Positions 12,904 to 57,115 of a stretch of 64,000 nucleotides of DNA are shown piece by piece. A program made the position numbers and the translations under genes. Positions within the stretch are counted from its first letter, which is position 1, and each line of letters begins with the position of its first letter. The notes beneath the pieces are model-generated. The model was not told where the DNA came from and did not search any database. It saw only the letters and a list, made by a program, of their open reading frames with translations. The DNA is taken from NCBI GenBank assembly GCA_033002965.1, contig JAURVB010003427.1, positions 1-64,000 of the forward strand, in the 5' to 3' direction. This DNA comes from Piper betle. Taxonomy: Eukaryota > Streptophyta > Magnoliopsida > Piperales > Piperaceae.

Positions 12904-13369
12904 TGTGAGATCCCTCAACTTAGTCCCACATCTAATACCTACTGGGAGAAGATCCTGTTTATAAGTGGGAATGGATTATAGATCTTTAACTTTCGGGGTA
13001 CCCATTTTAAAGAAATGACTTAGCCCATTACGTTGCACTTTGGGCTGGGTCGTTACAAATGGTATCAGAGCCGACCTGGTTCCGTGTTAGATGGTGGGCT
13101 GGATTAGAAACGTTGGCTAGGCTGCCGGTCACGGCCGAAAGGTCGTGGGCTGGGGCTAGCAACGAGCCAAGAATAGGCATTTCGGGGACGAAATTCCCTA
13201 AGGTGGTGATTGTGAGATCCCTCAACCTAGTCCCACTATCTAATACCTACTAGGAGAAGATCCTGCTCATAAGCGGGAAACGAGACGTATGGATCTTTGA
13301 CCCCTGGGTACCCATTCTACAAGACACGGCTTAGCTCCATTACGTCGCACTTTGGGCTAGGTCGTTACA
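12904..13369 (+). mobile_element. TRIM retrotransposon, single copy with perfect TSD
   Basis: A complete terminal-repeat retrotransposon in miniature. LTR 12904-13057 (154 bp, TGTGAGATCC...CGTTACA), internal 13058-13210 (153 bp), LTR 13211-13369 (159 bp). The internal region has only a tRNA-iMet primer binding site, TGGTATCAGAGC at 13060-13071, and a purine-rich end AAGGTGGTGAT before the second LTR. There is no coding capacity. The flanking 5-bp repeats are CTCCT at 12899-12903 and CTCCT at 13370-13374, a perfect TSD. It is inserted in the internal region of the family-A element. Termini and PBS recall widespread dicot TRIMs of the Cassandra type. Movement would need enzymes supplied by other elements. 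Confidence 0.93.
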
Positions 13370-15224: not shown

Positions 15225-16330
15225 CTATATCTTCGGAACCTCAGGTTGCTCTTGTTGTTGCTTCGGAGGCTGACGACAGTCCTTATGTATGTGTCCCGTC
15301 CTTCCGCAATTGTAGCACCGACGGGGCTCAGTGCATTGCCCGGAATGCGTCTTGTTGCAATTTTTACATTGTCTAAGTAGAATCTCCTCAAACTTCCTTT
15401 TGTGGTTCCCCTCTACGTCCCCTTGGAAATTCTTAGCCTTTCCTTGTTTCTGTGCACGGTCATGCTCGTACACCAACTCATGAGTGGTGGCTGCCTCGAT
15501 CACTTCTGTTATAGTGCCTCTTGGTGCAGTAGCAACCCTACTCCTCAATGCGGGCTTCAACCCCCAGAAGAATTTGTCCGCTCTAGCCTTATCAGTTGCC
15601 AGAATCCCAGGTGCAAATCGTTCCAACTGCAAGAAATTCTTGGCATATTCCCGGACAGAATCTTCCCTCTGAGCCAGAGTGGCGAATTCTAGTGCTTTTT
15701 GTTGGACAACGGACTCGGGAAAATACTGTCCATTGAAAACTATTATAAATTCCGCCCATGAGATGGATGAGATCTCACGGCGATAAAAGGTGGTCTTTTC
15801 CATGGATTTCCACCAATAAGATGCTTCCTCCTGAAGCATGCATGTTGCCAACCTCACCTGATGGCGATGGGGCACCGATAGAGCTCTAAATGCTTTTTCA
15901 GTAATGTCTATCCAGCTCTCCGCCTTCATTGGATCAGTCCCTCCAATGAATACCTCAGCTCCATTCTTCCGGAACTTCTCCACAGTGTATCGTTCACTAT
16001 CATCCACAACTGGCGGCACCACTTGTCGGACTACCGGTGGCACAGGGTTTGGAAACTCCCTTTGCACGCCCGGGTCAGATAACCCTGCCCGCCCTTGGGC
16101 ACTCCCCTGATCACCATCTAGGACATTACTTGGACCCGCTGCCGAGTTTAAGGTTCCATTCCCTGCTACCATTCCCGGTAACCGCTGAACCATATTTTGA
16201 ACCACAGAATGTGTATTTTCTGAAGCCTGCGCGAGTCCTTGTATGGCCGTCAGGATCTGGGCCAATACATTCTCTATGTATTCATACTTGACGGAGTAGA
16301 TTGGTTTGTCCGTCTACGAGTGCCGGCCAT
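15225..16330 (-). CDS. Gag polyprotein of a gag-only (TR-GAG-like) Ty3/gypsy element
   Basis: An open reading of 346 codons (16265 down to 15225) encodes a near-intact gag, the structural capsid/nucleocapsid protein of retrotransposon particles. Residues about 115-265 are a typical retrotransposon gag domain (AESWIDITEKAF, QEEASYWW, WAEFIIVFNGQYFP). A variant knuckle CKNCNKTHSGQC is at 300-311, and a perfect CX2CX4HX4C knuckle CYNCGRTGHIHKDC at 317-330. The 346-codon frame opens at a TTG. The natural start is more likely the ATG at 16328-16330, whose first 15 codons (MAGTRRRTNQSTPSS) are followed by a small frameshift near 16280-16290, judged against the B2 copy at 33880-33930. The protein ends PEVPKI, about 30 bases from the polypurine tract, with no protease or RT. 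Its integrity in a decayed neighbourhood suggests relatively recent activity or selection for gag. Confidence 0.9.
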
Positions 16331-17523: not shown

Positions 17524-17987
17524 TGTAACGACCCAGCCCAAAGTGCAACGTAATGAGCCAAGTCATTTCTTTAAAATGGGTACCCCGGAAGTTAAAGATC
17601 TATAGTCCATTCCCACTTATAAACAGGATCTTCTCCCTATAGGTATTAGATGTGGGACTAAGTTGAGGGATCTCACAATCCACCCACCTTAAGGAATTTC
17701 GTCCCCGAAATGCCTATTCTTGGCCCGTTGCTAGCCCCAACCCACGACCTTCTGGCCCGTGACCGGCAGCCTAGCCAACGTTTCTAATCCAGCCCACCAT
17801 CTAACAAGGAACCAGGTCGGCTCTGATACCATTTGTAACGAACCAACCCAAAATGCAACGTAATTGGCCAAGTCATTTCTTTAAAAATGGGTACCCTGGA
17901 AGTTCAAGATCTATAGTCCATTCCACTTATAAACAGGATCTTCTCCCAGTAGGTATTAGATGTGGGACTAAGTTGAGGGATCTCGCA
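17524..17987 (-). mobile_element. TRIM retrotransposon, single copy without TSD
   Basis: LTR 17524-17677 (154 bp), internal 17678-17833 (156 bp), LTR 17834-17987 (154 bp). The internal region contains the complement of a polypurine tract (ATCCACCCACCTTAAGG) at its left and the PBS (complement of GCTCTGATACCA) at its right. Outer flanks are GGACT and GCTTC, which do not match. The left flank is B1 LTR, while the right flank is unrelated to it. Ectopic recombination between two TRIM copies, or a deletion ending at the TRIM, is the likely cause. Confidence 0.9.
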
Positions 17988-27291: not shown

Positions 27292-28554
27292 AATCCCATG
27301 CATGCGCACACACGCTACATGGCCCACAGGCTGTAGTTACTAATATTTTTCATTGACTCACCCTCTCGGTATCACAAGTGCATAATGAGCCTTCTTGCGC
27401 CACTGTGCACTGTTACCCCTTTCGGCATGCGGGCAAGTGTTTAATCTTTCCAAGGGGTGCTGCCTTATGCCGAATTGAGTCGAGCCCAGTTGCATTCCAA
27501 CGCATGGTGGTCAGATACTCAAGTCAACAAGGACTCCCACATAGTAATTTTAAACGGTGCGGCCCCATGCCGGATAGAGTCAATTCCTTGACCCCAGTTG
27601 CACTCGGTTGCAAGGTGGTCGAATGTGGGCTCACGCCGACCAGGGCTGCCAAAAAGGGAAAATACAACATTTCAAATAATTATACTGACCTGAATAGTTC
27701 GTAAGTGAACCTGCAACTATGACTAATGATCCTAACCTTAACGAGAAAATAAAATTATAAACAAGTATAATTTTATTCGAGTAGAAATGCTTGCAACTCT
27801 CACTAATCGATATCATGATTAAAATTCAACAATATTAAATATTAAATTATTCATGTGACATAATTATTTAAATCCTACTGTACATTTTAAATTATTTATC
27901 TAAATTATAGTTCACACTTAACAAATGATAAAATAATTATCAACTTATAAACAAATATTTAATTACTATTATTAGTATATTTTCCTTCAGTTATAATTTT
28001 TAATCGCTATCATTATTCATAGAAATTTAATTAATTAAGTTGTTCGATTAAATTATTTAAAATAATTTGTATTATTCTAATTCAAAGATATTACTAATAC
28101 AATTATTTGAAATTATTCAACTCAATAAAGTTTTAAACTTTATTTATTTCCATTATGCTATTTAGGTTCAATGCTTATGATTTTTACAAGATTATAGTTT
28201 ATGAACCCATTTTCTACCTTACTAACCTATTATCAAAATAATCACATTATTTACCTAATATTAAATTTAATATGATAAAGGTAAAATTTTTATTTTATTA
28301 ATTACTTATAACCATCTGATTTAAATTAATCGCTTGTAGTACGCCAATTAATTATCGACCATTTTTCATTACCGTATTTTTATTAACTTATGGTGATTTC
28401 GTACAATAATTAATTAGTTTAACAACTTTAATTATTTTTAAAGATTTCTTATGATTTAGTATTATTTTTAACTCGGGCCGGTGTCAAGTCAACCATTATT
28501 TACAGATCTGTCATTTTCTTCTGCCCCAACGTTCTTCTTCTCCTACCTTCTTCT
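27292..28554 (-). mobile_element. B2 left LTR, second part
   Basis: Resumes with the TSD AATCC and CATGCATGCGC, matching 34590-35860 of the right LTR, up to the TSD CTTCT (28550-28554) of the TRIM array. The protein-like reading at 27378-27704 lies in this LTR and has no family match that I can see. Confidence 0.9.
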
Positions 28555-29856
28555 TGTAATGACCCAGCCCAAAGTGCAACGTAATGGGCTGAGTCATCTC
28601 TTTAAAATTGGTACCCCGGAAGTTAAATATCTATAGTCCATTCCGACTTATAAACAGGATCTTCTCCCAGTAGGTATTAGATGTGGAACTAAGTTGAGGG
28701 ATCTCACAATCCACCCACCTTAGGAAATTTCGTCCCCGAAATGCCTATTACTTGGCCCGTTGCTAGCCCCAGCCCACGTCCTTTCTGGCCCGTGACCGGC
28801 AGCCTAGCCAACGTTTCTAGTCTTGGCCAGTTGCTAGCCCCAGCCCACGACCTTTTTGGCCCGTGACCGGCAGCCTAGCCAACGTCCCTAGTCCATCCCA
28901 CCATCTAACACGAAACCAGGTCGAGCTCTGATACCATTTGTAACGACCCAGCCCAAAGTGCAACGTAATGGGCTAAGTCATTTCGTGAAAATGGGTACCC
29001 CGGAAGTTAAAGATCTCTAGTCCACTCCCACTTATAAACAGGATCTTCTCCCAGTAGGTATTAGATGTGGGACTAAGTTGAGGGATCTCACAATCTACCC
29101 ACCTTAGGAAATTTCGTCCCCGAAACACCTATATTTGGCCCGTTGCTAGCCCCAACTCACGTCCTTTCTGGCCCGTGACCGGCAGCCTAGCCAACGTTTC
29201 TAGTCTTGGCCCGTTGCTAACCCCAGCCCACGACCTTTTTGGCCCGTTACCGGCAGCCTAGCCAACGTCCCTAGTCCATCCCACCATCTAACACGGAACC
29301 AGGTCGGCTCTGATATCATTTGCAATGACCCAGCCCAAAGTGCAACGTAATGGGCTAAGTCATTTCTTTAAAATGGGTACCCCGAAAGTTAAAGATCTCT
29401 AGTTCATTCCCACTTATAAACAGGATCTTCTCCCAGTAGGTATTAGATGTGGGACTAAGTTGAGGGATCTCACAATCCACCCACCTTAGGAAATTTCGTC
29501 CCCGAAATGCCTATTCTTGGCCCGTTGATAGCCCCAGCCCACGTCCTTTCTGGCCCATGACTGGCAGCCTAGCCAACGTTTCTAGTCTTGGCCAATTGCT
29601 AGCCCCAGCCAACGACCTTTTTGGCCCATGACCGGCAGCCTAGCCAACATCCCTAGTCCATCCCACCATCTAACACGGAATCAGATCTGCTCTGATACCA
29701 TTTGTAATGACCCAGCCCAAAGTGCAACGTAATGGGCTAAGTCATGTCTTTAAAATGGGTACCCTGGAAGTTAAAGATTTATAGTCCATTCCCACTTATA
29801 AACAGGATCTTCTCCCAGTAGGTATTAGATGTGGGACTAAGTTGAGGGATCTCACA
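28555..29856 (-). mobile_element. Tandem TRIM array: 4 LTRs and 3 internal units
   Basis: LTRs at 28555-28708, 28939-29092, 29321-29474 and 29703-29856 (each 154 bp). Internal units at 28709-28938, 29093-29320 and 29475-29702 (228-230 bp). Each internal unit has a polypurine tract complement (ATCCACCCACC or a variant), two copies of a 75-bp-class repeat (GGCCCGTTGCTAGCCCC...AGCCTAGCCAACG) and a PBS complement. The middle PBS is altered: its minus-strand reading is TGATATCAGAGC at 29307-29318. The outer flanks are a perfect TSD, CTTCT at 28550-28554 and 29857-29861, so the array behaves as one insertion. It has no coding capacity. Confidence 0.95.
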
Positions 29857-30788
29857 CTTCTTTGCACCAAAAACCAAACATGATGTCTTCTTCTTCAACC
29901 CAAAACCAGATCACATCCATGTCAGCATAAAGCTTGTGCTTTACAGCAACTATCCATGTCAAACTCTGTTCTGCACCAAGGCGTGTGATGCCTGGCCAGC
30001 AGCACTGTCGGGACTACAAGGTGAACTCCGTCCGGCCAGCAACACTGCCAGAAACACTCCCCTTCTCCCTGCACAACAACCCAATGTCAAGGCCAAGCGC
30101 TGTGAGCATGCACGGCGTGAGCCTTGGCCGGCGAACTGTTATGAATGTCTCAAATCCCTCACAACATTGTCCATTATCCCCATCCTTGAAATTTTGCCCA
30201 CTAACAGGTGCAATTCTGCCACCCACAGGAAACTAGGGACATGGCGAGCCATCCCTTCGACCCAGCATTCAAAGAGATTGCCGGGAGTGTTAGGGGATGC
30301 CTTGCAAACTTGGTTACAGTCGCCCATCTTGCCAACATTTCAAACTCATCGGCCATGGCGAAATTTCAGTTTTCAGTTTGGTTTTCTTTTCTTTCTTGAT
30401 GATATAAGACTTTAATTCTCATGATTATCAAGCTTATTATTCATAAAAAGAAATATGCATGCATGAAAATTAAGAATAGGGAGATATGAGGAATACCCAA
30501 GCAAGGAGGAAGAAGCAGCACCAGTAAGGAATAAGAGAAGAAAATGAGAATGAAGGTTGCTAGGGTGAGGAGGACGTCCTTATAAAAAATAAAATGAAAA
30601 TGACGGCTAGGGTATGTGAAAACACCCCAACACTCGCATTTCATTTAACCAGGTAACCAGGTAAATAATAAAATATAATTAACGAGATAGAATTAACCCG
30701 GTAGAGAGTATAATATAATTAATATTATTAATTCTCCAATGTTTGATCCTTCCCCGACTTAGTCGATTTTTTTTTCACAATCTTTACA
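29857..30788 (-). mobile_element. B2 left LTR, third part
   Basis: Matches 35860-36832 of the right LTR (TTTGCACCAAAA near 29862 against 35868) and ends TCTTTACA next to the polypurine tract. The overlapping readings at 29934-30415 on both strands are shadows within the LTR; equivalents occur at 35912-36447. Confidence 0.9.
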
Positions 30789-32463: not shown

Positions 32464-33452
32464 CTAGAAACTCTCTTCACACTTACTACTCCATTCGAAC
32501 TTGACTCTCTTCCTTGTGAGTTTGGTCATCGGTGATGCTACTAAGGAGAAGTCTTTAATGAATTTCCTGTAGTAACCCGCTAAACCAAGAAAGCTTCTGA
32601 TGTCAATGACTAACTTGGGTTGTGGCCAATCAGTGACTGCTTTCACTTTTGATGGATCCACTACAACTCCAGCCTTTGAGATAATATGACCAAGGAAGTT
32701 TACCTCCTTCAACCAGAAGTCACATTTTGAGAGCTTGGTGAATAGTTGATTTTCTCTTAGAACTTGAACCGTAATGGACAGGTGCTTCATATGCTCTTCT
32801 TCATTATTTGAATAGATTGGAATGTCATCCACAAACACGATAATGAACTTGTCCAAGTATGAATGGAATACTATGTTCATGAGTGACATAAAGGCAGCTG
32901 GTGCATTTGTTAGACCAAAAGGCATAACCAGAAACTCATAATGTCCATACCGAGTTTGGAAAGTTGTTTTCTGTATGTCTGACTCCTTTACTCGTAACTA
33001 GTCATAGCCAGACTGCAAGTCTATCTTAGAAAATACTCCGGCTATTTTTAGTTGATCAAACAACTCATCAATCCTTGGTAAGGGGTACCAATTCTTGACG
33101 GTCACTTGATTGAGTTGTCGATAGTCAATACACAGCCAGAGTGATCTATCTTTCTTCTTCACAAAAAGAACAGGGGCTCCCTAGGTTGAAGTACTTGGTC
33201 GGATGAAACCTACTTATAACAACTCTTCTAGTTGACTCTTTAACTCCTTGAGTTCTGCTAGAGCCATGCGGTATGGTGCTTTAGAAATTGGTGTCACTCC
33301 AAGTGCTAGATCAATGGCGAACTCCATTGCCTGATTAAGAGGTAACCCTGGAAGTTCGTCTGGGAATACATCAGGAAACTCTGCTACCATAGGAATCATG
33401 GACAACTCTTTGGGTTTGGACTCAGACTCAACTAAGCTAGTCGAAAAGGCTT
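32464..33452 (-). pseudogene. B2 reverse transcriptase
   Basis: The longest open part, 32464-32925, encodes 153 residues beginning [17 protein letters not shown]. It contains the active-site motif FVDD (residues 31-34, at about 32824-32835), [20 protein letters not shown] and [13 protein letters not shown]. Upstream in the same sense, 32926-33210 holds [14 protein letters not shown] and [11 protein letters not shown] followed by a stop. The 63-codon reading 33214-33405 holds FPDVFPDELPGLP and PYRMALAELKELK, the linker before RT. The catalytic residues remain but stops interrupt the frame. The protease that should precede the linker is missing: at about 33452 the sequence joins directly to gag. 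Confidence 0.88.
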
Positions 33453-44420: not shown

Positions 44421-44906
44421 TGTAATAGCCCAGCCCAATGTGTAAATTAATGGGCCAAAGTTATCTTTTGAAAAGTGGTTTTAAGATCTATAGTTTATTC
44501 CTATTGATAAACTGGATCTTACCCTAATAGTACCTATTAAATATGGGACTAAATTACGGTTATTACAATCCACCTACCTTAAAAAATTTTGTCCTTAGAA
44601 TCTCCTACACTCTGCCCATCGCCAACCCTAACCCACGATTCCTACACTCTGCCCATCGCCAACCCTAGCCCACGTCGTTCTTGTCCTATGGTCAGCAACC
44701 TAACCTATGTTCTTACTCCAACTCATCATTTAACATGGAACTAGGTTGGCTCTGATAACATTTATAGCGACCCAACCCAAAGTGCAAAGAAAGTCATCTC
44801 TTTAAAAATGATTAACTGAAGATAAAAATCTAAAATTTATTCTCACTTATTAACCGGATCTTTCCCCCGTACATATCAGATGTAAGACTAAGTTAGAACT
44901 ATCACA
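44421..44906 (-). mobile_element. Old degenerate TRIM
   Basis: LTR 44421-44567 (TGTAATAGCCCAGCCC to GGTTATTACA), internal 44568-44762 with ATCCACCTACC and GGCTCTGATAAC, LTR 44763-44906. It is clearly the same family as the other TRIMs but heavily mutated. A short CTACACTCTGCCCATCGCC repeat occurs twice in the internal region. Possible TSD: TACAA against TAAAA (one mismatch). Confidence 0.8.
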
Positions 44907-46883: not shown

Positions 46884-49800
46884 TCTAACAACTCAAATCC
46901 GGTCCATACTCGTGAACCGAACTGGCATGTTACAGGCCCCAGTTAGGTCAATTAACCCGAACCCAACTCGTGCAGATCCAATATTGGCGTCTTAAGATGA
47001 AGATACGACTCGTCGTGCATGGATAAATGCACAAAATACTAACATGATACTACATTGATGACATTCAAACTAATTTACACACCAATACAATTACGATAAA
47101 AATTACATAAAAATTCTCAAATACAACGGATAGAGTCTCCCCTAAAAGTGTAATTAGGGTCCACCCTGTTAAAATAATATATACAAGTATATATGCATAT
47201 ATCAACAATTTCATTCACACACAATCTAATATGTTGTAAACTCACTTAGAAGCTTAGGTCTCAACCCACAACGCTTCTATTGCGCAATCTATTCATGTTT
47301 CACATTCTGACATCATGTCTTAACAATTAATCACATCATATCATCATGTCTCAAGCATTTAATCACACCATATAATAATATCATAAACACAATATAACCA
47401 ATCAATTGACTGACATGTGTGCAAGTGACAATAGTGTTCCTCCGTCCAAGCTGGCTCCTCCAACTTGTGATTCTTACCTACATATAGTATAAAAACACGT
47501 CATAACAAGTGTTACTTGTCCAGAAAATAAAATAACTATAACAAGTTGGCTATGAGAGCAAACTCTCATATGAAAGAAAACATCATATACTCCACGTGAA
47601 CACTCTGAAGGGCACTACTGAGCAGCCACTGGCCTGCAGACCCGGTAGCATCCCGAACTTACTGATTTGCTACTGCTGATGCCGCTATCGGCATTTTCTT
47701 ACTTCATTTTCTGGTCTCAAATCCTAAGCCCTCTCCTTACCTCCATATTTCTCCTAGCCTTGAGCACGAAGGCCGAGTACTCTCAGGCAGTCGCCTTTAA
47801 TACCCTTTGAACCACAAGTCCGAACATGCGCTGTAATAAACAGTACCCGTAAACCTCCACGTTCTTCGGCTGTGAGGAACTCAAACGCGGAGTTGTCAGG
47901 ATCCCTCAGGAATGGAAAGTCCACTAGCACTAATCCAGAGCCCGCTTTGACTGTCATGGCATCCGCTCATGGTGCATGCAGTCGGTTTCTCCATCTCTCA
48001 TCTCACTGAAAACGCAAAAACTACATATATATAGGTCTGGGTAGGGATTTATATAATAGGCCCGAAGGTAACTTGTGGTGGATCTTATTTTCAAAATCAT
48101 CCTCGAGGGATCTCATTCTCCAAGGGTTATTAATCTGGAAAACTGTTCGGTTAAATGGCCCGAGTTAAGTAGGATCCAATAAAACACCACGTAACCTGTC
48201 TTGCAAATAATAAAATAAACATACAATAGAAGAGAACATAAAACAAAGATGAGTCCTAAGCAAACCTGGTAGAAGCTCCAAGAGTGTCATCGCGCCTAGG
48301 TGGCGAGCTCCTACTCTGTACCTACACATCAAAACTAAATACTAACGCCCGCTAACTAAATGATGCATCAAACTCATCATATAATCAACACACAAAATAA
48401 TAGTCATCCATCACAATTAACAATCAAATAATCATAAATGTAAATAATCCTAACTCATCCTATTCATACCAACTTTATTGTGTTTTTCTAACTTATGTCC
48501 TGATCCCTCATCATGCTCAGACTCGATCTAGCTCATTAGATCACTTACATTCATCCATTACCAATCAAATCATGCATATCATTACTTCTTTCATGCTCGG
48601 ACTTTTATCATGTGAATCAATCAATCTTATCATACTATGCTAGCAATCATTAATTTTAAATAATCAAATCAGAGGTAATTATACCTCTCGTCGTCGACAA
48701 TCGGTGACTGCTAGGGTTTCATCACGTGTCTCAGAACTCGAATTCGGCGTTCATCGGCGTCCGAATCTCGATCGGGTTCTACTGGATGAGCTCTGCGAAA
48801 GATTCAGTGAATTTTAGCGAATCTGGTTTTCCAGCAAGTTCTGGCGGTTTCCCGGTGGCTTCAATGGTTTTCTGGAAGCTCTCCAACGGTTTTCCAGCGA
48901 TAATCACCGGCGACGTGTGAGATCCCTCAACTTAGTCCCACATCTAATACCTACTGGGAGAAGATCCTGTTTATAAGTGGGAATGGACTAGAGATCTTTA
49001 ACTTCCGGGGTACCCATTATAAAGAACTGACTTAGTCCATTACGTTGCACTTTAGGCTGGATCGTTACAAATGGTATCAGAGCCGACCTAGTTCTGTGTT
49101 AGATGGTGGGATGGACTAGGCACGTTGGCTAGGCTGCCGGTCACGGGCCAAAAAAGGTCGCGGGCTGGGGATAGCAACGGGCCAAGACTAGAAACGTTGG
49201 CTAGGCTGCCGGTCACGGGCCAGAAAGGACGTGGGCTGGGGCTAGCAACGGGCCAAGAATAGGCATTTCGGGGATGAAATTTCCTAAGGTGGGTGGATTG
49301 TAAGATCCCTCAACTTAGTCCCACATCTAATACCTTCTGGGAGAAGATCTTGTTTATAAGTGGGAATGGACTATAGATCTTTAACTTTCGGGGTACCCAT
49401 TTTAAAGAAATGACTTAGCCCATTACGTTGCACTTTGGGCTGGGTCGTTACAAATGATATCAGAGCTGACCTGGTTCCGTGTTAGATGGTGGGATGGACT
49501 AGGGATGTTGGCTAGGCTGCCGGTCACGGGCCAGAAAGGTCGTGGGCTGGGGTTAGCAACGGGCCAAGACTAGAAATGTTGGCTAGGCTGCCGGTCACGG
49601 GCCAGAAAGGACGTGAGTTGGGGCTAGCAACGGGCCAAGAATAGGCATTTCGGGGACGAAATTTCCTAAGGTGGGTGGATTGTGAGATCCCTCAACTTAG
49701 TCCCACATCTAATACCTACTGGGAGAAGATCTTGTTTATAAGTGGGAATGGACTAGAGATCTTTAACTTCCGGGGTACCCATTTTAAAGAAATGACTTAG

Positions 49801-51163
49801 CCCATTACGTTGCACTTTGGGCTGGGTCGTTACAAATGGTATCAGAGCCGACCTGGTTCCGTGTTAGATGGTGGGATGGACTAGGGACGTTGGCTAGGTT
49901 GCCGGTCACGGGCTAAAAAAGGTCACGGGCTGGGGATAGCAACGGGCCAAGACTAGAAACGTTGGCTAGGCTACCGGTCACGGGCCAGAAAGGACGTGGG
50001 CTGGGGCTAGCAACGGGCCAAGAATAGGCATTTCGGGGATGAAATTTCCTAAGGTGGGTGGATTGTGAGATCCCTCAACTTAGTCCCACATCTAATACCT
50101 ACTGGGAGAAGATCCTGTTTATAAGTGGGAATGGACTATAGATCTTTAACTTTCGGGGTACCCATTTTAAAGAAATGACTTAGCCCATTACGTTGCACTT
50201 TGGGCTGGGTCGTTACATGGCGTCTACTGACTGGATGGGGTCATATTGGGTATCATTGGAACTGGCTCGGCGAGACCGACACATCTACGACATCGACGTG
50301 GCCAGTGGAGGTGGTGGCTTACTGGAAAATGTCTAAAACAAAGCGGCGGTGATGGGTGAAGAAATCTGGTCGATCTGGGCGGCGATGGCCTCCTCTCTTG
50401 TTGGGAAAGATCACTGGAGGGTCGAGGGTGCCGAGGCTACCACCCGATCGTGGTGGCGACGATCGCCGATGGCAAAATTGGTGATGCGACCGCGGTGCTA
50501 GGCACGGCGATTCTGCCATCGTGGAGGTTGGGCGACGGCCGGGACTAGTTGGGGCGGCACGGCGACGCTACAGCGAGGCTTGGCGGCACTGATTGGTGGC
50601 AAGGTGGCGTCGGCCGCGGTGGCGGTGGCATGAACAGTGGGCGGTGCACGGCAAGGGTTGGGAAAGAAGAAAGGAAAGGTCCGGGGAGAGGAAGATAAGG
50701 GCTGGTGGCAAACTTGTAAATATTACTTGACTCGTCTTCGGCTCGAATCAAGAATAATATTTAAGTCGTCGTAAATCCTAAAAAAGTTCAAAAAATTTGG
50801 GAAAAATCCTAGAAAATAAAACAATCACTAAAACATCATAATGATATGCTCTGGGACTATCAACCCACCCAAACTACCCGTAACGCGTCCTAACACAGTA
50901 ACAGCCTAAAACTAATTCTACAATCCACTATATATAAAAAGAAAAAAATAACTAGCATACTCTCATATATTCTGATAACTCATTCTGTTCTACTGTGTTC
51001 ATGACGTTATCATCATATACTTGGGTACGCATGCCCCTCATAGCATATACACGCGACTGGCGTCAGCTCAGTACATGTGTTCTGAAACTGACTCGACTCG
51101 AAAATAACGGTCGAACCGATTGGTTCTGAATATAAAACCCTAACTCGAATCGTGGGTTTTATA
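46884..51163 (-). mobile_element. Family-A solo LTR with TRIM array inside
   Basis: Plus text from TCTAACAACTCAAATCCGG to CGTGGGTTTTATA; both termini are mutated from TG/CA. The perfect TSD GTGCA occurs at 46879-46883 and 51164-51168. Without the 1302-bp TRIM array the LTR is about 2.97 kb, as expected. Hairpin GGTCCATACTCGTGAACC is at 46901-46918, a TATA-like stretch near 48026, and the GC-rich block at 50220-50700. Confidence 0.93.
48916..50217 (+). mobile_element. Tandem TRIM array: 4 LTRs and 3 internal units (second copy)
   Basis: LTRs at 48916-49069, 49299-49452, 49681-49834 and 50064-50217 (each 154 bp). Internal units at 49070-49298, 49453-49680 and 49835-50063 (228-229 bp). Each has a PBS two bases inside the LTR and a polypurine run GGTGGGTGGAT before the next LTR. 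Total length is 1302 bp, identical to the array at 28555-29856. The middle PBS reads TGATATCAGAGC (49455-49466) as in that array. Outer flanks are CGACG and TGGCG (two transitions apart), a weak TSD. The host is the GC-rich block of a family-A LTR; the uninterrupted text resembles 12006-12050. Confidence 0.93.
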
Positions 51164-54784: not shown

Positions 54785-55055
54785 GTATATGTCACTAAAA
54801 GTTGGTTAACTAAGTTGAAGACTTATAATTTACTCTCACCAATAAACCAGATTTTACCACAATAGGTATTGGATGTTGAACGAAATTAGAGGTTATTACA
54901 ATCCACCTACTAAGGTAAGTTTTGTCCTTAAAATCTCTACACTTAGCCCATGACTAGTAACCTAACCCATAACCTATTTGGCCCATGGCTAGCAGCCTAG
55001 CCCACGTCCCTAGTTTAGCCCAATATTCAATATAGTTCTGGATTGACTCTAATGC
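54785..55055 (-). mobile_element. TRIM remnant (one partial LTR and internal region)
   Basis: The partial LTR at about 54785-54900 ends GGTTATTACA. It is followed by ATCCACCTAC, then CCATGGCTAGCAGCCTAGCC, then GATTGACTCTAATGCC where the PBS complement should be. The second LTR is missing: the text turns into TGTTGGATCCAAGATTTTGA, which looks like the start of a copia LTR. Confidence 0.75.
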
Positions 55056-55589
55056 CTGTTGGATCCAAGATTTTGATAATGAAATGCTACAAGACACACT
55101 TATGATTTTGAACCAAGACTCAAAAGGTTGGGAAACAAGAGTCTCAACAATAGAGTTCAGAAGGTGTTTCAGAAGATTGATCAGCTGCCTATCAAACTAG
55201 GGCACAAGTCATCCCCCTTAGAAATATATTATTTTGTGAGAAATTTTCTCCAACTTGTTCTTGTCAAACTTATAGAAGCTACAAGTGTAAGTACGCGAAT
55301 TTTCAACCCTCATAATATTAGTTTCTTGCTCTTCTATAGCCACGGGATTCATATTCATTAGTATTATTGGTTTCTTACTCTTCATACAAATATTCATGTT
55401 ATTCATACTATTAGTTTCTAGTTCAATATAACCAAGTGGTTGGTAGTCATTATCTTCCAAACCTTCTTTGGACAATCTAGGAGTAGTTTTCTTGTAGTTC
55501 AATCGCTGAGGTTAGCATCATGTGTGTTGTGTTAAGCATGTTCAATCAATGTGTAACTAGAGAGTGAAGGTTGTAGGACATGATGTTGG
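55056..55589. other. Unassigned; possible copia LTR start
   Basis: TGTTGGATCCAAGATTTTGA at 55058 resembles the terminus of some plant copia LTRs. No second copy or other motif is present. A minus reading at 55218-55502 (94 codons, low complexity N/M/E rich) has no recognised domain. Confidence 0.3.
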
Positions 55590-57115
55590 TGTTCGTATCA
55601 GCCATTTTGATACGAAACACGTGTGGTGGTTTGAAGAGGACAAGAGGTAACAAGCATGCTACATGTTTTTGGATTGCGAATAAGTGCCTCGAGCTCTATG
55701 ACAATCTAATAAAGTATATTGGCTAAACTATTTAGGACCACATATGCAAGTTCATGGAGTGGATTGTGAGCTATAAGATAGCTTGGATGGCAAAAAATGT
55801 ACTTCGTGAATTGAGTTTGGGAAACTTTGAGAGGTCTTACAAGTTGCTGCCTGGGAAGAGATTGGTAAGGGTCATTCCGGATAGTGTGTTCAAGGTAGTT
55901 GCACAAAGATTTGCATCCAATGAGGGGTGCACATTCTTCCATGTCTTTTGGGCTTTTAGGCCTTGCATTAGGGCCTTCCAAACTTGTCTATGGCCGATTC
56001 TCATGGTAGATGACACTTTCCTTAAAGGGAAGTATGATGGGTGTCTACTCATTGCATATGCTGCTAATAGAAACAACGGAACAATTCCTATTGCATATGT
56101 TGTAGTTGAGGTCAAGTGTGACTCTTTACGGATATGGTTTTTAGCTCTCATCTACCATCATATTTGCAATGAACAGTTTACACTGAAGACCATAATATCA
56201 AATAAAATGAAAGGATTTGCAACGGCAATGACAAATATTGTCCCCAAGGTCGTGCACAAGTATTGTATGAGGCATCTAACCGAGAATTTGTGGTCACAAC
56301 ATAAGAATGTCTATGCAAGGAAGCAATTTTAGAAAGCTGAGATAATACATAGACTATTTGACTTTGTGCAAATATTGAAACATATAGATGATAATGATTG
56401 TGACATCCACACATGGATCAACTAGGTGGCACACCATAGGTGGGCAAACACTCACTTTCAGGAGAGAAGATATGGCATCCTCACTACAGGCAGATTAGAC
56501 AGTTGGAATGCATTCTTAAATCATGCAAGAAGATATCCAATATGTTCCCTTATAGTGCATATGAGAAAGGTAAAGGCCAACCACTTCCACAAATGTCAGT
56601 GTCAGGCAAAAGGGTGGGAGGGGACTTTGACACTAAAAACTTATGCAACAATTGAGGCTTCAAGGAGGAAGGCACGACGCATAGACATGATGCCAATAGG
56701 GATGTATGATTTCCAGGTAAACTCGGAAGCATTCTAAAACAAGGTAAGTATGTCAATCCTTTCCTGCACATGCAATGAGTACCAAGGGACAGGACTCTCT
56801 TGGCCACATGTTGGAAGTGTATTGATTATCAAAATTAGTAAGTGGAGGAATTTTGTAATGAATGATTTTTTATGGCCAAATACAAGAAATTTTACATTGA
56901 GATAATCAATCTCATGCTTGATCAAAGCTAGTGAGAGCATGTGTACGCAATGACCTTCCGCTCATTAAGCCACCACTATTTCACAGACCACCAAGTTGCC
57001 CTAAAGAAAAACGCATTGAATTTCAGTCGTCCAAAAAAGAGTCATGCCATTATAGTGGATGTGACACTCTGAGACACAACATTCGTCATTGTCCGACTAA
57101 AGGGAGATAACATGT
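55590..57115 (+). pseudogene. Mutator-like (MULE) transposase pseudogene
   Basis: The main reading 55754-56332 (192 codons) carries the MULE transposase core: FFHVFWAFRPCIRAFQTCLW, then MVDDTFLKGKYDG with the first catalytic Asp at codon 86 (56009-56011), LLIAYAANRNNGTIPIAYVV and the CX2H block HKYCMRHLTENL. The second expected Asp is Asn at codon 150 (ISNKMKG, 56201-56203). The same frame continues past stops at 56330 and 56423 with WANTHFQERRYGILTTGRLD, past a stop at 56735, to a SWIM-type zinc motif CTCNEYQG...WPH (56765-56809) in which one Cys is Trp. A CCHC-like knuckle with the first Cys as Tyr lies at 57051-57092 in another frame. Stops and lost residues mean it is inactive. No terminal inverted repeats were found. 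Confidence 0.88.

Follow-up and report, generated by a model that had tools for sequence, protein, structure and literature searches.

The two multi-LTR arrays in the window (the whole 64,000-nucleotide stretch of Piper betle DNA analyzed here) are TRIM arrays of a large, noncoding plant family with several subfamilies, and we think it probable, though well short of certain, that the units of such arrays are joined at reverse transcription and later reshaped by unequal exchange. The resemblance of the two arrays, which an earlier note had ascribed to one trimer being copied to both sites, would seem from the sequences to be due mainly to a family that often forms such arrays.

Two four-LTR arrays of one TRIM family

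An nhmmer parse and alignment bear out the architecture given in the earlier note. Each array is 1302 bp long and is made up of four 154-bp LTRs and three internal units of 228 to 230 bp, the unit lengths being, from 5′ to 3′, 228/228/230 in the left array and 229/228/229 in the right array. The features of the arrays and of two related two-LTR copies are as follows.

28555..29856, minus strand: left array, LTR-INT-LTR-INT-LTR-INT-LTR (L4I3), by nhmmer parse and alignment
29857..29861, unstranded: target-site duplication CTTCT, outside LTR1 of the left array
28550..28554, unstranded: target-site duplication CTTCT, outside LTR4 of the left array
29703..29856, minus strand: left LTR1
29475..29702, minus strand: left internal unit 1, 228 bp, long subfamily
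29321..29474, minus strand: left LTR2
29093..29320, minus strand: left internal unit 2, 228 bp, with PBS TGATATCAGAGC, GGGGTTAGC, and GAGTTGGGG
28939..29092, minus strand: left LTR3
28709..28938, minus strand: left internal unit 3, 230 bp
28555..28708, minus strand: left LTR4
48916..50217, plus strand: right array (L4I3), flanks CGACG/TGGCG
48916..49069, plus strand: right LTR1
49070..49298, plus strand: right internal unit 1, 229 bp, four markers in common with unit 3
49299..49452, plus strand: right LTR2
49453..49680, plus strand: right internal unit 2, 228 bp, with PBS TGATATCAGAGC, GGGGTTAGC, and GAGTTGGGG
49681..49834, plus strand: right LTR3
49835..50063, plus strand: right internal unit 3, 229 bp
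50064..50217, plus strand: right LTR4
12904..13369, plus strand: two-LTR copy, short internal unit of 153 bp, duplication CTCCT
17524..17987, minus strand: two-LTR copy, short internal unit of 156 bp, without duplication

With LTRs of 154 bp around an internal domain of 157 or 228 bp, which is too small for the usual retrotransposon genes, the family belongs among the TRIMs, and both window arrays are tandemly arrayed TRIMs in that at least three LTRs alternate with at least two internal domains. The PBS, TGGTATCAGAGC, starts two bases past the LTR and appears as a TGA variant in both window middle units; we take it to be a match to tRNA-Met. Target-site duplications of 5 bp are found around the left array, where the perfect outer CTTCT reported earlier is confirmed, and around two-LTR copies (CTCCT, GCACA, and others). 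The flanks of the right array, CGACG and TGGCG, have two mismatches in five bases, leaving this array without a recognizable duplication.

The whole left and right arrays differ at 69 aligned positions. The right array has an A′-B-A′ order: its units 1 and 3 have four common markers and are, at 7 differing positions, mutual nearest among the six window units. Units 1 and 3 of the left array have two common markers of their own, which are absent from the right units. LTR sites 52, 76, 90, and 149 follow no order common to both arrays, in line with the earlier observation that some LTR variants differ in order between them.

An A′-B-A′ order is also seen in C992 (L050), which has a perfect duplication and an LTR1 one substitution from LTR3. 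The long internal unit (e.g., 29093-29320) appears, by eye and from overlapping profile hits, to contain a duplicated stretch of about 71 bp that is single in the short subfamily.

Middle-unit variants in the family and the genome

As had been claimed, unit 2 of both window arrays, and none of the four outer units, carries the PBS A, the A and T of GAGTTGGGG, and the T of GGGGTTAGC, but these variants are not specific to a trimer. In a set of 87 long units taken from the window and from fetched loci (the long units of L057 and L058 included), the T of GGGGTTAGC, at the TTAGC site, is the commonest family state (56/87), with the outer units carrying a minority C or A. Of the 87, 28 have the T of GAGTTGGGG and 3 the A of GAG, the third carrier of the latter being a lone two-LTR element on C809 (L014:5191) that has GAGTT with a normal PBS and its own duplication, GCACA. 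PBS A occurs in 8 of the 87 in this sample, which is enriched for PBS A; genome-wide, exact-flank PBS matches number 70 for the A form and 3200 for the G form (70/3270). Because the variants are largely family background, their occurrence in the same unit of both arrays is weakened as proof of a moving trimer.

A pattern search of the whole genome for a TGA or TGG PBS together with TTAGC and GAGTT gave 18 matches, the TGA form being found only in the two window units; the search was exact and overlooks any copy whose three motifs are altered in some other way, the lone C809 copy among them. PBS A occurred together with the A of GAG in none of the long units among 40 fetched PBS-variant loci.

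The two middle units differ from each other at 10 positions, and each has equally near or nearer units elsewhere; differences at INT positions 16, 55, 74, 84, and 127 interrupt the stretch that they have in common. When unit pairs are ranked by rarity-weighted shared minority states, the window middle units come 44th of 3537 cross-locus pairs. With the genome-wide PBS frequency entered, the window arrays rank third of 78 array pairs for best unit match, which falls at the middle position, and two unlinked pairs of the 78 share as much or more. These rankings are suggestive of some shared history of the two window arrays, not of a copied trimer. Homology between the flanks of the two loci was absent within 2 kb on each side, and segmental duplication is rejected on this ground.

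Units group by array

For comparison of units by position, we used 14 arrays with at least four LTRs, taking one four-LTR stretch from each (C2312, C7292, C2195, and C778 extend past four LTRs, and C3859 stops at the contig end). The trees contained 39 internal units from 13 arrays, C809 having been dropped for its third unit of 267 bp. In the internal-unit tree, array labels required 24 changes, a number that none of 300 shuffles (mean 31.3) matched or undercut; position labels required 23 against a mean of 18.9 and thus did not cluster. The LTR tree gave 32 changes against 41.2 for array labels (0/300 as low) and 30 against 29.4 for position labels (214/300 as low). All five starred forks of the unit tree unite units of a single array, and the fork uniting the second units of the left and right window arrays (winL_2 and winR_2) has a support of 71/83 and no star. 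Grouping of units by array and not by position is the outcome that the earlier note itself had named as speaking against a copied trimer.

Pairwise matching agrees with the trees. The best-matching units occupy equivalent positions in 25 of the 78 array pairs, with 26 expected, and the mean shared-variant score is 1.92 inside an array, as against 0.65 between units at matching positions and 0.60 between those at nonmatching ones. The trees and these best-pair counts lead us to reject positional homology between the units of separate arrays. Near-copies stand side by side in C11004, C2312, C3859, and C2195, and units have clearly spread inside arrays.

Arrays enclosed by a single target-site duplication

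Comparison loci were mostly chosen by PBS variant or BLAST rank rather than at random, and 22 arrays with at least three LTR hits and an LTR at both ends were in hand. One flanking 5-bp repeat with clean LTRs was found in 12 of the 22, perfect in 11 and with one mismatch in C4074, which was retained as its flanks become perfect after a one-base shift on both sides of the fixed ends. Six of these arrays have four LTRs (the left window array, C992, C11004, C9389, C9548, and C3194) and six have three (C3190, C1084, C340, C4074, C3422, and C37). L016 (C888) was left out of the 12 for its split LTR in spite of the duplication CGGTT. The flanks of L038 (C5141) match only after a three-base shift, those of L020, L047, and L044 match with one mismatch and only after shifts, and L008 (C3859) is missing one flank. 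At fixed ends, duplications were absent from the second array of L014, L019, L055, and the right window array. Six further loci (L057, L058, L059, L060, L061, and L073) are cut or continue into further units and were not counted as arrays.

A long unit of about 228 bp is combined with a short unit of about 157 bp in four of the six three-LTR arrays (C3190, C1084, C340, and C4074). In C3190, C1084, and C4074, the subfamily marker also differs between the units (GGGATGGACTAG versus GGGCT-GATTAG), making a simple deletion within the array an unlikely source of the length difference. Both units of C340 carry the short-type marker; it may represent a variant in length or the product of recombination, and a simple deletion inside the array could still account for the difference. 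The wider proposal of the earlier note, that a multi-LTR TRIM may insert as a single unit, is supported by these other loci through their duplications, their two-subfamily composites, and their outer LTRs, which in most three-LTR cases are more like each other than like the inner LTR (see below). Recombination of an extrachromosomal circle with an inserted copy would likewise keep the duplication.

Outer and inner LTRs

The clearest case is C4074, where the outer LTRs are 0 substitutions apart and the inner LTR lies 7 from each. Across the six three-LTR arrays with a duplication, private substitutions in LTR1, the inner LTR, and LTR3 number 21, 41, and 20 (binomial P = 0.0013), and minority alleles common to the outer LTRs alone number 11, against 5 common to an outer and the inner LTR. 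Neither C1084, which is a two-subfamily array, nor C37, both with a perfect duplication, has minority alleles common to the outer LTRs alone.

Among the 12 arrays with a duplication, 9 have outer LTRs that lie nearer one another than they do the inner LTRs; among the 4 for which no duplication is known, the count is zero. Adding four more arrays, L020 and L044 not among them, brings the tally to 10 of 14 arrays with some form of duplication and 1 of 6 lacking one. L016 gives a tie (outer-outer 7 versus 7.0) and L038 has closer outer LTRs (4 versus 5.0), as does C1294 (L019), a long-plus-short array without a duplication (5 versus 7.5); in the second array of L014 they are not closer (6 versus 3.0).

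In four-LTR arrays with a duplication, this signal is mixed to poor. Minority alleles are common to the outer LTRs alone at 2 sites, both in C3194, to one outer and inner LTRs at 8, and to the inner LTRs alone at 5. The LTRs of C992 alternate, LTR1 going with LTR3 and LTR2 with LTR4; in C11004, the two inner LTRs are identical and the three units close, an outcome expected of local duplication; and the LTRs of C9389 have no such alleles in common. The outermost LTRs of the left window array are separated by 8 substitutions against an outer-inner mean of 9.0, with one supporting site (position 76), and this site and the duplication are all that the array offers for insertion as a unit. The right window array departs from the pattern, with its outermost LTRs at 7 against a mean of 5.5. 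A single duplication, the other feature of template-switching elements, is present around the left array (CTTCT/CTTCT) and absent from the right one (CGACG/TGGCG).

Mixing of two subfamilies across the genome

The subfamily marker separates the two unit lengths well but imperfectly, A..C being found in 67 of 77 long units and 3 of 62 short units. Mixing was counted by exact 17-base markers, and the counts are therefore lower bounds. The genome contains at least 1821 long-type markers and, on 112 contigs, at least 69 long-to-short and at least 73 short-to-long junctions. Unmixed junctions number at least 363 long-to-long, most of the 100 matches listed (of 363) falling in a few long arrays, and at least 168 short-to-short.

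Exact markers also reveal alternating triples, at least 12 long-short-long and at least 9 short-long-short. Around a short unit (C1 to C8728), there are 5 long-short-long, 8 long-short-short, 3 short-short-long, and 19 short-short-short triples, and the excess of alternation in this set is not significant (Fisher P = 0.12). Around a long unit (contigs to C1759, with long arrays counted once or omitted), the 3 short-long-short, 1 short-long-long, and 1 long-long-long triples are too few for a test.

Regular long/short alternation with a combined period near 692 bp is seen at C1401:10989-12389 and C7123:6971-8374. Satellite-like arrays made of long-subfamily units, very long and extending over several to many kilobases, lie on C1462 (L022), C137, C1565, C9740, and C620.

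Origin of the arrays

Retrotransposition of one whole trimer with a marked middle unit to both window sites, the origin put forward in the earlier note, would explain the equal size and copy number of the two arrays, the genome-wide restriction of exact matches to PBS A with TTAGC and GAGTT to these two units, the third place of the pair among 78 at the matched middle position, and the fork uniting winL_2 with winR_2 (71/83). We consider it quite improbable all the same: a third exact match is missing, the support of that fork is below the star, and the middle units are 10 differences apart with equal or nearer neighbors elsewhere. Nor do the outer units match their positional counterparts (the nearest of the six to right unit 1 is right unit 3 and vice versa, and two markers common to left units 1 and 3 are lacking on the right), the LTR variants at sites 52, 76, 90, and 149 have no shared order, the right array is without a recognizable duplication, and the unit and LTR trees, with 25 of 78 same-position best pairs, weaken the proposal further. 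The exact haplotype matches are confined to two neighboring arrays, and with flanks devoid of homology within 2 kb, no segmental duplication is seen; both facts would suit a local exchange in which one middle unit was partly converted by the other array, 20 kb off and inverted, after both existed. Such an exchange is unlikely, if not negligibly so, given that the common stretch is broken at five INT positions, differences that would require the conversion to be old, and that two unlinked pairs among the 78 share equally or more.

Growth of all arrays through nothing other than unequal crossing-over of single two-LTR insertions agrees with the grouping of units by array, with the adjacent near-copies in C11004, C2312, C3859, and C2195, and with the very long arrays on C137, C1462, C1565, and C9740. 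It is hard to fit to two subfamilies inside one duplication (perfect in C3190 and C1084, one mismatch in C4074), for which local duplication of one insertion is not readily the source, or to the identical outer and divergent inner LTRs of C4074, and as a full account it strikes us as highly doubtful. Fusion of two adjacent insertions via recombination of their proximal LTRs, proposed earlier for complex LTR elements in the accounts of PMC1950507 and PMC4528315, suits arrays that lack a duplication (the right window array and C8690 are examples). It predicts unequal flanks and would not leave the matching 5-bp flanks found in 12 arrays (11 perfect, the left window array included), which makes it a very improbable general source.

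In the reading that we favor, we infer that strand jumping joins the units and that unequal exchange follows. Minus-strand DNA reaching the R end of one copackaged RNA would jump to the 3′ R of another or, as an alternative joining step, a multiunit transcript would be copied whole. The joined product would integrate once, giving one 5-bp duplication, with outermost LTRs that start identical and with inner LTRs and units that may belong to another subfamily. Unequal exchange between LTRs after insertion would then add or remove units, and the units of one array would grow alike. Both insertion as a unit and spread inside arrays seem to be needed because the four-LTR results are mixed and units have spread within arrays, some of them many kilobases long. 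On this account, the left window array would be a single insertion event, marked by its duplication, whose units are now diverged. A similar origin would apply to the right array, where the duplication would have been lost or replaced and where units 1 and 3 are related to each other. Most of the similarity between the middle units would come from variation shared by the family, to which a single local exchange across the 20 kb between the arrays may have contributed.

A further step, to which we would give something less than an even chance, is that reverse transcription in this family regularly yields composite multi-LTR elements, copackaged RNAs of two subfamilies being linked end to end in a single insertion, and that the composites are themselves copied, yielding alternating arrays. 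Alternation is not what one unequal exchange of a two-subfamily dimer would produce, the expected result being blocks (AAB or ABB). If the composite reading is true, TRIM arrays record which RNAs were packaged together.

Relation to known elements

TRIM tandem arrays with outer duplications (PMC4717578 and PMC4528315), Cassandra arrays (PMC7215508), and template switching (PMC1950507) are already in print. TA-TRIMs of plants, for which L3I2 and L5I4 forms are described and which are reported in 35 of 43 genomes (PMC4717578), resemble the present arrays in having LTRs common to adjoining units and, in a figure legend of that paper, outer 5-bp duplications; the present analysis differs from that account in building unit-by-position trees, in describing arrays that mix long and short units, and in comparing outer LTRs. 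Sabot and Schulman (2007, PMC1950507) proposed template switching for four elements of large grass families. Their complex elements are like ours in the single duplication, three LTRs, similar outer LTRs, and proposed mechanism, and unlike them in that ours belong to a TRIM family with mixed-subfamily junctions on 112 contigs. Closer outer LTRs within one duplication match the template-switching signature published there, which the four-LTR arrays show poorly.

Cassandra is likewise a TRIM with arrays of tandem units; PMC7215508 describes many-unit arrays and multiunit transcripts detected by RT-PCR, discusses template switching, places a 5S rRNA-like promoter in the LTRs, and includes the string TGGTATCAGAGC in its search pattern. 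The Wukong TRIM of maize has elements with 3, 4, 6, and 7 LTRs, the majority with duplications, and in this it is like the present family, although its authors, unlike us, prefer recombination between adjacent elements (PMC4528315). Tandem LTR retrotransposons with shared LTRs in rice and other plants have been judged single insertions by authors who leave the mechanism open (PMC11899658); these tend to gypsy, unlike the TRIM family here. For ONSEN of Arabidopsis, pairwise recombination between copackaged transcripts is reported (PMC5668417). Reports of two-subfamily TRIM arrays were absent from the literature searched, whose coverage leaves out many journals.

Two-subfamily arrays inside one target-site duplication offer a better natural test than shared middle variants, since their outer and inner LTRs are directly comparable. 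If the outer-LTR signal holds genome-wide in loci taken at random, the choice between unit insertion and later recombination, open in PMC11899658, becomes a counting exercise.

Other features of the window

The window also contains a diverged two-LTR copy of the TRIM family (44422-44894) and a fragment of the family (54812-55056). Pfam matches identify retrotransposon gene remnants on the minus strand at 15225-16265 and 32464-32925, namely, a Ty3-type gag with a zinc knuckle and a partial reverse transcriptase, and an open frame with a MULE transposase domain at 55754-56332.
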